Position numbers and translations under genes: made by a program. Below, one piece after another: positions 2,719 through 4,262 of a DNA stretch of 6,163 bases. The notes below the pieces were generated by a model. That model had not been told where the DNA came from. It searched no databases and saw only the letters and a program-made list of their open reading frames with translations. The number at the start of each line of letters is the position of its first letter. Position 1 is the stretch's first letter. Origin of the DNA: Acidobacteriota bacterium (GTDB lineage: Bacteria; Acidobacteriota; Terriglobia; UBA7540); NCBI GenBank assembly GCA_021789565.1, contig JAJYJL010000551.1, forward strand, positions 1 to 6,163, read 5' to 3'.

Positions 2719-3177
2719 ATGAAGCGTGAATACCCTGATCACCCGATTGTGGGAGTCGGCGGAGTGGTCATTCGAGATAACTTCGTACTCCTGATCCGGC
2801 GCGGGCGAGAACCGCTCAAGGGCGAATGGTCCATACCAGGAGGCATGCTCGAACTCGGGGAGAGTTTGAAAGACGGAATAAAGAGAGAAATTCTGGAGGA
2901 AACAGGCCTGAAAGTCCGTCCGCTGGAGCCCATCGCAGTGCTGGATCGCATACAGGAGAACGGGGGCAGAGTACAGTTTCACTACGTCATTATCGACTAT
3001 GTTTGCCGACCGGCAGGAGGCCGTCTGAAGGCCGGCAGCGACGTTCTGGATGCCCGATGGGTGGACCGCCGCAATCTGCTGGACTACAAAATCACGCCCA
3101 AAGCCGCCGCCGTTATCGCTGACGCATTTGATTGGTTTGCGAAGCACAAAAAGGTATCATCACGCAAGACCCGGTGA
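2719..3177 (+). CDS. Nudix hydrolase, ADP-ribose pyrophosphatase-like
   Basis: This is a 152-residue cytosolic Nudix protein, expected to cleave a nucleoside diphosphate linked to another moiety using a divalent metal. Residues 42-64 match the Nudix box GX5EX7REUXEEXGU exactly, with Gly42, Glu48, Arg56-Glu57, Glu60-Glu61 and Gly63. Just before it is the EPLKGEWSIPGG segment (31-42), typical of the group often annotated as ADP-ribose pyrophosphatase or MutT-like (COG1051 type). That resemblance is recalled, not searched, and substrate cannot be read from sequence. The frame is open upstream to a GTG at 2614. I prefer the ATG at 2719 because the conserved fold begins at residue 11 (VGVGGVVIRD) and the upstream residues look like translated intergenic DNA; GGCGAG lies 9 nt upstream as a weak ribosome site. 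It is divergent from aroDE and convergent with the small transcription unit to its right. Confidence 0.92.
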   Translation: MKREYPDHPIVGVGGVVIRDNFVLLIRRGREPLKGEWSIPGGMLELGESLKDGIKREILEETGLKVRPLEPIAVLDRIQENGGRVQFHYVIIDYVCRPAGGRLKAGSDVLDARWVDRRNLLDYKITPKAAAVIADAFDWFAKHKKVSSRKTR

Positions 3178-3249
3178 GCCAACTGCCTGAAACTTGACCC
3201 TATCACTGCTGCCGCCCGGTCCCAAATCCAAGCCCCATAAAATACAGAA

Positions 3250-3282
3250 CCCCTGGCCTTGCTTCGCTGGCAAGACCAGGGG
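3250..3282 (-). terminator. Rho-independent terminator of the small transcript
   Basis: The arms CCCCTGG-T-CTTGC and GCAAG-G-CCAGGGG (minus strand) form a continuous 13-bp stem with one U-G pair and a 7-nt loop. It is followed on the minus side by the T-rich TTCTGTATTTTATG. On the plus strand the same position is a C-A mismatch and no T-tract follows, so it acts leftward rather than terminating the convergent Nudix gene. Confidence 0.8.
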
Positions 3283-3326
3283 TCGGATACTGATTGGGAT
3301 TGGCCTCCCTGATGCTTCCGGGAACT

Positions 3327-3341
3327 GGCGCTACTAGCGCC
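3327..3341. repeat. Near-perfect palindrome
   Basis: GGCGCTACTAGCGCC has 7-bp arms around one central base. In the predicted minus-strand RNA it gives a 6-bp GC-rich hairpin with a 3-nt loop. It is part of the small transcript. Confidence 0.7.
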
Positions 3342-3399
3342 GTGCCTTTTATCCTCTCTTAGCTAGGGAGAGGTCCTACAAACAAGCACTAGCGAGCGC

Positions 3400-3441
3400 C
3401 TAAGCCTCAGCACCCTCGCTACAGTTACTTTCAATTTGCAT
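3400..3441 (-). CDS. Mini-ORF of 13 codons with a very strong ribosome binding site
   Basis: ATG at 3441 to TAG at 3400 encodes MQIESNCSEGAEA, an acidic peptide with one cysteine and no signal or membrane segment. I do not recognise it. The case for translation is the ribosome binding site: 14-17 nt complementary to the 16S rRNA 3' end, with GGAGG spaced 6 nt from the ATG, placed just after a promoter. The stop codon lies in the 18-nt loop of a 7-bp stem whose 5' arm is inside the ORF, so a translating ribosome would open that stem. It may be a functional peptide, or its translation may serve to control the RNA. The short length gives no coding statistics. Confidence 0.45.
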   Translation of the reverse strand: MQIESNCSEGAEA

Positions 3442-3458
3442 GGATCACCTCCTTTCTA
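3441..3458 (-). promoter_or_regulatory. Extended Shine-Dalgarno sequence complementary to the 16S rRNA tail
   Basis: The plus strand reads TGGATCACCTCCTTTCTA, the form taken by many bacterial 16S rRNA 3' ends. The minus-strand RNA therefore carries its full complement, including AAAGGAGGTGATCC, directly before the mini-ORF ATG. Typical sites pair over 4-7 nt. The GTGATCC part can also pair with GGAATCAC at 3468-3461 (one bulged A), which could partly mask the site if transcription starts far enough upstream. Confidence 0.75.
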
Positions 3459-3469
3459 GCGTGATTCCG

Positions 3470-3498
3470 ATACTATAGTCCTGCGACTTCGGAGTCAA
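3470..3498 (-). promoter_or_regulatory. Sigma-70-like promoter of the small transcript with an embedded inverted repeat
   Basis: On the minus strand TTGACT (3498-3493, five of six) is followed by TATAGT after 15 nt (3477-3472) or TAGTAT after 17 nt (3475-3470). Transcription would start near 3465-3463, about 20 nt before the mini-ORF. The 12-bp imperfect palindrome GACTTCGGAGTC (3485-3496) overlaps the -35 box and the spacer, a position where a repressor could act. Confidence 0.6.
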
Positions 3499-3499
3499 G

Positions 3500-3535
3500 A
3501 AAAAACATCGGCGCACTGAAGTAAATTTCAGCGCG
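3500..3535 (-). terminator. Rho-independent terminator of the glycosyltransferase gene
   Basis: On the minus strand CGCGCTGAA (3535-3527) pairs with TTCAGTGCG (3520-3512) in a 9-bp stem with one G-U pair and a 6-nt loop. A run of six T (3505-3500) follows 6 nt after the stem. The glycosyltransferase stop codon (3530-3528) lies inside the 5' arm. The tail ends one base before the -35 box of the next promoter. Confidence 0.6.
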
Positions 3536-4262
3536 GAAAGTGGCCCGTCAAAGCGTGCCATCGGAGCACAATCAGATCGAGGAACATACGCGTGGAATCA
3601 CGCAGGAAATGGACCTTGGTGGCGGGATTATCGTTCCAGCGGACGGGCACTTCCACAATCTTCCCGCCCAGGTGCTGGATCAGGAAAAGCACCTCCGGGT
3701 CAAAGCCGAACCGCTCAACCTGCTGCAGTTCAAAAGCCCTGCGCGTTGAGTCTCTGCGGAAGAGTTTCAGCCCGCATTGAGTGTCGTGAAGCTTGAGCCC
3801 TGTAAACAGTCTGACCAGCAGATTGAAGAATCGCCCGGCAAGCTCGCGTTGCAGCGGCTGACGGACTCCAATCAGCTTCCGGTCGAGAGCGCGCGAGCCG
3901 ATTGCGGCATCGGCCGACCCGGTCTCCAGCGCAGCCAGCAGCTTGTCCGCTTCTTCAATGGGAGCGGAAAGATCAGCATCTGTGAAAAGGACCAGTTTGC
4001 CACGCGCTTCCAGAACGCCACGCCGGACGCTGAACCCTTTTCCACGGTTGACGCCGTTCAAAAGCACCTGCGTTCTGGACCAGAGCGATTGAAATTCCCT
4101 GAAAAGATCCGCAGTACGGTCACTGGAACCGTCGTCCACAAGCACGATTTCAACCCCAAAGGGCTTTGAGGAGGCGTATTTCCGGACTTCATCCAGGGTT
4201 TTCCCAACCCTCAGAGACTCGTTGTAGGCAGGGATAACAATACTTAGGTACGGGCTAGCCAT
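3528..4262 (-). CDS. GT2-family glycosyltransferase, polyprenyl-phosphate glucosyltransferase-like
   Basis: This 244-residue GT-A enzyme should transfer a sugar from a nucleotide donor, probably to a polyprenyl phosphate at the inner face of the membrane. The opening SIVIPAYNES (7-16) and VDDGSSD (42-48) form the nucleotide-binding part; DAD at 95-97 is the metal-binding DXD. NRGKG (72-76), DTQCGLKLF (160-168), FGFDPE (185-190) and RWND (208-211) are shared with the dolichyl-phosphate beta-glucosyltransferase (ALG5-like) branch as I remember it, rather than with chain-forming GT2 synthases. No transmembrane helix is evident; the C-terminal segment 224-240 could lie on the membrane. Neighbouring genes do not reveal the glycan. 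The start fits because the conserved fold begins at residue 6, yet no Shine-Dalgarno sequence precedes it; a -10-like TATATT lies only 9 nt upstream, so a leaderless mRNA is possible. Confidence 0.9.
   Translation of the reverse strand: MASPYLSIVIPAYNESLRVGKTLDEVRKYASSKPFGVEIVLVDDGSSDRTADLFREFQSLWSRTQVLLNGVNRGKGFSVRRGVLEARGKLVLFTDADLSAPIEEADKLLAALETGSADAAIGSRALDRKLIGVRQPLQRELAGRFFNLLVRLFTGLKLHDTQCGLKLFRRDSTRRAFELQQVERFGFDPEVLFLIQHLGGKIVEVPVRWNDNPATKVHFLRDSTRMFLDLIVLRWHALTGHFPR

Follow-up and report, generated by a model that had tools for sequence, protein, structure and literature searches.

Dual-function sRNAs and leader peptides occupied by ribosomes share a design in which a short open reading frame (ORF) lies within a structured RNA and in which translation and structure are interdependent. 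The Caulobacter sRNA CC2171 (RF01867) begins with GAAAGGAGGUGAUCCA followed by GUG, that is, with a long complement of the 16S rRNA tail and a start codon. Ms_IGR-5 (RF02471) is an sRNA of Actinobacteria; passages of three papers (PMC8079986, PMC8780764, and PMC10454040) report transcripts of its Streptomyces and mycobacterial members, the last of them citing Li et al. 2013 for the IGR RNAs of M. smegmatis. MS_IGR-5 homologues with ribosomal reads in M. abscessus and M. smegmatis are described in a passage of PMC4974804, which also states that most characterized E. coli ncRNAs show a footprint, so that these reads are weak support. In Staphylococcus aureus, according to a passage of PMC13009471, extended Shine-Dalgarno (SD) mRNAs pair beyond the core SD with the 16S 3' end during initiation.

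Here, we describe an RNA encoded on the minus strand of a 6,163-nucleotide (nt) stretch of an Acidobacteriota genome (contig JAJYJL010000551.1, order UBA7540), the whole of which we call the window. It differs from dual-function sRNAs and leader peptides in having neither a downstream gene nor a known target, and from the S. aureus mRNAs, which have extra start-proximal pairs, in that the whole tail is matched and the match lies in a short independent RNA. We propose, with a confidence slightly short of even, that it would be a structured mini-mRNA, ~220 nt long and transcribed on its own, that works by engaging ribosomes. Titles and abstracts of the open-license PMC literature yielded no 16S-tail-complementary sRNA of this kind and no ORF in Ms_IGR-5.

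A transcription unit between two protein genes

The unit runs on the minus strand from about 3462 to 3242 (~220 nt) and occupies one intergenic stretch, with a glycosyltransferase gene on one side and a convergent Nudix gene on the other. The preliminary description had read a self-contained minus-strand unit here, and its promoter, ribosome site, 13-codon ORF, hairpins, and terminator could all be located and are conserved across the order. The parts are as follows.

3528-4262, minus strand: glycosyltransferase gene (PF00535)
3470..3498, minus strand: promoter, with -35 TTGACT at 3498-3493, a 17-nt spacer, and -10 TAGTAT at 3475-3470 (pattern scan)
3441..3458, minus strand: 18-nt complement of the 16S 3' tail, TAGAAAGGAGGTGATCCA, whose last base is the A of the start codon
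3400..3441, minus strand: 13-codon ORF MQIESNCSEGAEA, from ATG (3441-3439) to TAG, in a frame kept in the family
3402..3415, minus strand: 5' strand of helix P1, GGGTGCTG at 3415-3408 and GGCTT at 3406-3402 (RNAalifold, pair counts)
3386..3399, minus strand: P2 hairpin, whose first base is the base after the stop codon
3353..3373, minus strand: P3 hairpin, CCTCTC/GAGAGG (consensus fold and pair counts)
3327..3341, minus strand: P4 hairpin, GGCGC/GCGCC (consensus fold and pair counts)
3285..3306, minus strand: 3' strand of P1, AGGCC at 3306-3302 and CAGTATCC at 3292-3285 (alignments, pair counts)
3301-3293, minus strand: conserved unpaired bulge AATCCCAAT within the 3' strand of P1 (both alignments)
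3240..3284, minus strand: intrinsic terminator, a 15-pair hairpin at 3284-3248 and a U-rich tail (scan, fold, covariation)
2719-3177, plus strand: Nudix gene (PF00293), convergent to the RNA

Transcription would start at about 3462. The fold of the window RNA has an energy of -93.2 kcal/mol (z -4.78), which none of 200 shuffles equaled. Pattern scans gave 5 promoter-like sites against 2.5 expected and 9 terminator-like sites against 7.9 expected; such scans barely exceed chance, and the case for the unit therefore rests on comparison. In the members from the order, the promoter, SD, ORF, stop, and terminator are all kept, and those printed have a similar promoter arrangement upstream of the RNA. 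Judged from these sequences, what lifts the unit above chance is conservation, namely, its recurrence in 27 of 40 genomes of the order, its shared parts, and base-pair covariation. Elsewhere in the window, a single minus-strand gene (799-2370) fuses a type I dehydroquinase to a shikimate dehydrogenase.

Distribution in Acidobacteriota

The preliminary description had asked whether the hairpins are conserved in related genomes, and they are: blastn finds the RNA in the 27 genomes of the window's order just mentioned, and its helices covary. Over 297 phylum-spread genomes, blastn matched 6; one of them (G001) is the RNA by its score, one (L011) is an ordinary-looking ORF start, and the other four are weak rows outside the set that was followed. 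A pattern scan of contigs gave five stretches, of which the four acidobacterial ones carry the RNA and the fifth (L001, Oscillospiraceae) looks like an ordinary gene start.

Covariance models reach further. R1, built from 25 sequences of the order, matches 68 of 399 class genomes at E<=0.01. Beyond the order, 28 of the 32 R1 matches fetched are real (10 weak rows lay outside the fetched set), and the remainder are ordinary-looking gene starts (L098 and L105) or antisense of 16S (L103 and L104). R2 was built from 26 distant members, none of them from the window's order, and scores the window RNA at 65 bits (E 4.8e-19). It places the RNA in 258 of the 399 class genomes, a count that includes weak rows unchecked, and in 67 of the 297 phylum-spread genomes, where the weak rows were checked in part; 18 of 20 fetched phylum rows carry the same design, and two (L217 and L218) do not. 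L098, L105, and L011 are ordinary-looking Acidobacteriota protein genes whose SD sequences (AGGAGGTGATCCATG) are unusually long.

The RNA appears once per genome in most cases, with 4 of the 258 positive class genomes listed with two matches. In genome G002, the RNA is present on two contigs (L006/L042 and L009/L019), cut near contig ends in both; this could be either two copies or a redundant assembly.

Genomic context

A Nudix orthologue lies downstream and convergent, up to 1.3 kb away, at 27 of 54 loci (15 of the order and 12 distant), which makes it the commonest downstream neighbor; in L096, the Nudix match is upstream instead. The cluster of upstream glycosyltransferase genes covers 11 loci, and the other flanks differ. 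Is the RNA, then, a leader or attenuator of a neighboring gene? A same-strand ORF does follow it in some loci, but no such ORF recurs: none of the 54 loci scanned shares a same-strand downstream gene, and the ORFs of the sole cluster (three loci) turned out to lie antisense to the Nudix gene. Given also the convergent orientation of the commonest neighbor and the unit's own terminator, we give this explanation almost no credence. The preliminary description had likewise seen no minus-strand gene before the Nudix gene and had dismissed a role as a neighbor's leader, and the 54 loci bear this out. On this comparison, we take the RNA to be an independent unit with an old neighbor.

Complementarity to the 16S rRNA tail

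The ribosome site had been called exceptional from its letters. Over 18 nt (3458-3441), it is complementary to the 16S 3' tail, a property that adds to the preliminary description and that tells more about the RNA than any other: in genomes of this order, the antisense of the 16S 3' end reads exactly TAGAAAGGAGGTGATCCA. Its 15-nt core, GAAAGGAGGTGRTCC, has 39 exact places in the 40 genomes of the order, 28 in the RNA (in 27 genomes) and 11 opposite 16S; elsewhere in these genomes it has none, and a reversed-pattern control matched at 0 places. For 94 distinct members, the predicted duplex with the tail GGCUGGAUCACCUCCUUUCUA has 16 to 20 pairs and an energy of -33.5 +/- 3.3 kcal/mol, compared with -9.9 +/- 4.0 kcal/mol for ordinary ORF starts from the loci against the same tail (n=110), 2 of which reach the weakest member. 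The members in this comparison were chosen partly by AGGAGG, so that the contrast is one of extension beyond AGGAGG.

Across the family, the start codon follows the tail complement directly or within a few bases. Many of the printed phylum loci read AAAGGAGG-A-TGRTCCAGCC-TATG, in which the complement continues past the SD, with one extra base, onto a 16S strand that we take to be that of helix 45. It does so although the start codon of these loci then sits 12 nt from GGAGG; a plain SD, or start-codon placing by itself, would have no need of this.

Another element of the window RNA, CCCAATCAG (3285-3301), has its complement in CTGATTGGG, close to the 3' end of 16S. For five of the six partial 16S stretches compared, its energies range from -14.9 to -17.0, and the means of shuffled motifs are about -12 to -14. 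No 16S complementarity of the distant members' CCCAACAG was seen in the 16S stretches compared.

A short reading frame with a conserved end

One sign that the RNA is read by ribosomes comes from variation in length. In 46 distinct segments, the distance from the SD to a conserved GAG takes 18 values between 25 and 53 nt and covers every phase, yet each of the 46 offers an in-frame start (ATG, GTG, or TTG) from which the conserved end is reached without a stop, against 4.6 expected from segment shuffling. The test used the 50 sequences of alignments A1 and A4, with L094, L106, and a few near-duplicate or truncated members removed beforehand, and the nominal product of 1e-47 is overstated, the sequences being related. 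The preliminary description had suggested a dual-function RNA or a tiny-peptide mRNA, and this conservation of frame speaks for such a reading.

Among the 94 distinct members, the start is ATG in 77, GTG in 16, and TTG in 1. In all 94, position -5 is Glu and position -4 is Val or Gly, a motif with which they were chosen. When loci were chosen by the 5' element alone, all 97 distinct loci had a short ORF with Glu at -5 (72 ending E-V-x-x-x-stop and 25 ending E-G-x-x-x-stop); this set was drawn from model-search loci, and the 5' pattern leaves out CC2171-like ones. The peptides have 11 to 22 residues, an N-terminal half that drifts in sequence and length, and C termini that are mostly [S/R]-E-[V/G]-x-x-x. 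Because the ORF ends E-V-x-x-x-stop, a GAGGUG stands 9 nt before the stop. This hexamer, invariant in the 26 sequences of alignment A5 (the window's order has GAG-GGN), is the complement of the anti-SD sequence CACCUC, and its distance upstream from the last P-site codon is roughly one SD spacing. From these patterns, we conclude that the ORF is under selection and that the RNA is very probably translated.

The end of the frame lies in a long-range helix

The 3' half of the ORF pairs with the block before the terminator; in the window, GGGTGCTG-A-GGCTT pairs with AGGCC-AATCCCAAT-CAGTATCC. The 5' strand of this helix, P1, lies inside the ORF and extends to the first base of the stop codon. In the near alignment A1 (25 sequences, 26 pairs including P2 to P4), 97.2% of cells are paired and 17 have both sides changed, against 3.3 in shuffles; in the distant alignment A5 (26 sequences, P1 only), 94.3% are paired and 9 have both sides changed, against 1.9. 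A weak measure, the number of A5 pairs with both sides changed, is 3 against 1.4 and was reached by 33 of 500 shuffles, and one P1 pair fails in 7 of the 26 sequences. Pairing falls to 19 to 45% in A5 and 38 to 55% in A1 when the strands are slid. The alignments that yielded the P1 structures also served for the counts, which favors these structures. At A5 columns 89-326 (n=26), the pair is G-C in 13 sequences, G-U in 6, A-U in 3, and U-A in 2, and it is unpaired in 2; changes of an Ala codon to Thr or Ser track this pairing, and in L025, GGGAACTG is paired with CAGTTCCC.

These observations bear on whether the peptide itself is the product, the structure merely stabilizing the message or controlling its translation. 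The frame kept in every segment, the Glu at -5 in both sets of loci with Val/Gly at -4 in the first, and the resemblance of the Ms_IGR-5 consensus ending ...WTCEVAAR-stop to the acidobacterial ...WTSEVAEA-stop all fit a tiny-peptide mRNA. The N-terminal half of the peptide drifts, however; the conserved codons make up one side of P1, with Ala/Thr/Ser changes that follow base pairing; and a 16- to 20-bp match to the 16S tail would be left unexplained. We consider it rather unlikely that the peptide is what matters.

The local hairpins are also kept. P2 is paired in 99.0% of cells, with 2 pairs changed on both sides, and P4 in 99.2%, with 3 such pairs; the terminator hairpin covaries across 25 sequences. 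P2 and P4 are near-identical and change together, both being exchanged for CCCGAC/GTCGGG in L039, so that a single long-range helix (window 3327-3399) may form instead. The covariance model also matches 3327-3399 on the opposite strand.

Could the RNA be a switch that closes on itself, with a 16S-tail mimic in its 3' domain sequestering its own SD and thereby reporting the number of free 30S tails? In the minimum-energy folds of several members, the SD is taken up in pairing with P3 or GACCGCCUC, and L020, L033, and L039 are individually extreme. Over 50 sequences, however, internal anti-SD pairing has a mean z of just -1.0 relative to chance, with 13 sequences at p<=0.05 and several positive. 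Pairing of the P3 5' arm with the SD is thus weakly supported, and we judge such a switch very unlikely.

The bulge within P1 suggests a further alternative, namely, a trans-acting antisense sRNA gated by translation, in which unpaired CAATCCCAA would serve as the seed that recognizes target mRNAs. In its favor, both alignments conserve the bulge strongly and the consensus fold leaves it unpaired, but a protein-binding loop would look alike, and comparison with the available 16S stretches gave no clear complementarity. We regard antisense action as unlikely.

Kinship with Ms_IGR-5 and CC2171

The preliminary description had found no resemblance to any RNA family. Its exclusion of tmRNA, 6S, SRP RNA, and RNase P RNA holds, with no Rfam or ARAGORN match to them; the broader statement does not survive comparison with relatives. 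The covariance check against Rfam leaves the window RNA itself below threshold, at 23 bits for Ms_IGR-5 (E 0.034; cut-off, 45 bits), and none of the 40 genomes of the order passes that cut-off (best, 28.2 bits; 20 loci scanned), nor does any of 14 control genomes. Phylum relatives do exceed it, in 3 of 18 loci: L205 at 50.6, L202 at 50.3, and L201 at 47.3 bits. These three are R2 matches, and R2 also finds the window RNA; it is this stepwise link, and not its own score, that makes the window RNA a distant relative of Ms_IGR-5. The Ms_IGR-5 alignments of the window RNA and its relatives run from the first to the last model position. An 18.5-bit near-miss of the window to mir-9847 is taken as chance.

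The likeness extends over the whole RNA. Ms_IGR-5 starts with ACACnnGGAAGGAGGUGGUCC, which matches the 16S tail, has a GUGAGGUGGCUG block, and carries a 3' AAUnCC..CAG..CACCC block followed by a terminator. Its consensus in the cmscan alignment holds UUG AUU GAU UUA UGG ACA UGU GAG GUG GCU GCC CGC UAG, which would read (M)IDLWTCEVAAR-stop, to be set beside the acidobacterial ending above (L079 and L084); this reading is taken from a model consensus with variable positions. There are differences. In the Rfam structure line, the 3' block has no pairing partner and P1 is absent, and the family is labeled an sRNA; in the window, AUG directly follows the tail complement, whereas the Ms_IGR-5 consensus would need a UUG 12 nt after GGAGG. 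Ms_IGR-5, supposedly noncoding, probably works by being translated. With CC2171, the likeness is one of design only: the best match (L039) has 24.2 bits, mainly from the 5' element, against a cut-off of 75 bits that was reached by no locus scanned and in neither of two genomes.

Proposed mechanism and significance

In the ribosome-engagement model, four parts come from comparison: the tail complement, the kept frame, the end of the ORF inside a long-range helix, and the independence from neighbors. We speculate that the 5' end of the RNA hybridizes with the 16S tail and captures a 30S subunit, that translation would then begin at very high affinity, and that the ribosome would melt P1. It would stop with the SD-like GAG-GUG (GAG-GGN in the order) about one SD spacing upstream of its P-site, where it may dwell. 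We posit that the state of the ribosome, whether its capture, its dwell, or an RNA refolding that depends on translation, would matter more than the peptide, since the N-terminal half drifts and several residue changes fall on compensated base pairs. The outcome could be titration of 30S subunits, their parking, or a report of translation capacity. Against this model, the near-constant C-terminal E-V/G-A/T-E-A could equally mean a functional peptide, and the GAG-GUG codons may be kept for P1 and not as an SD-like element.

To generalize further, is this one widespread class of regulatory mini-mRNAs, in Acidobacteriota and Actinobacteria and possibly, by design, in Alphaproteobacteria? In such a class, tail hybridization would precede an ORF of 11 to 22 codons, the ribosome would be held at a stop that follows a second SD-like element by one SD spacing, the free-30S pool would be set or sensed, and Ms_IGR-5 would be translated. 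We think this possible, although doubtful.

An acidobacterial RNA of hundreds of genomes is here joined to a functionally uncharacterized "sRNA" of Actinobacteria, and both gain a testable activity, namely, ribosome capture and translation of a micro-ORF. Should the predicted pairing with the 16S tail take place, the RNA would differ from the protein hibernation factors in being a bacterial RNA regulator of the initiating ribosome that acts through the anti-SD itself. Families labeled noncoding can conceal ORFs below annotation size.

Plasmids and viral contigs

A blastn search of L205 against plasmids and phages gave no match. Patterns aimed at Ms_IGR-5 of Actinobacteria on viral contigs yielded either nothing or matches that were set aside: L109 to L111 fall in a region without an Rfam match, and L219 to L222 lie inside a longer protein gene. 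Two viral contigs, L075 (3865-4000) and L076 (9758-9856, close to the contig end), carry a CC2171-like 5' element (GAAAGGAGGTGATCCAGTGTCTCA). By reading, the L076 ORF ends GEVRA-stop, and the DNA just downstream of the L075 element, by reading alone, resembles the end of an integrase on the opposite strand, as if prophages might integrate beside a CC2171-like RNA gene.
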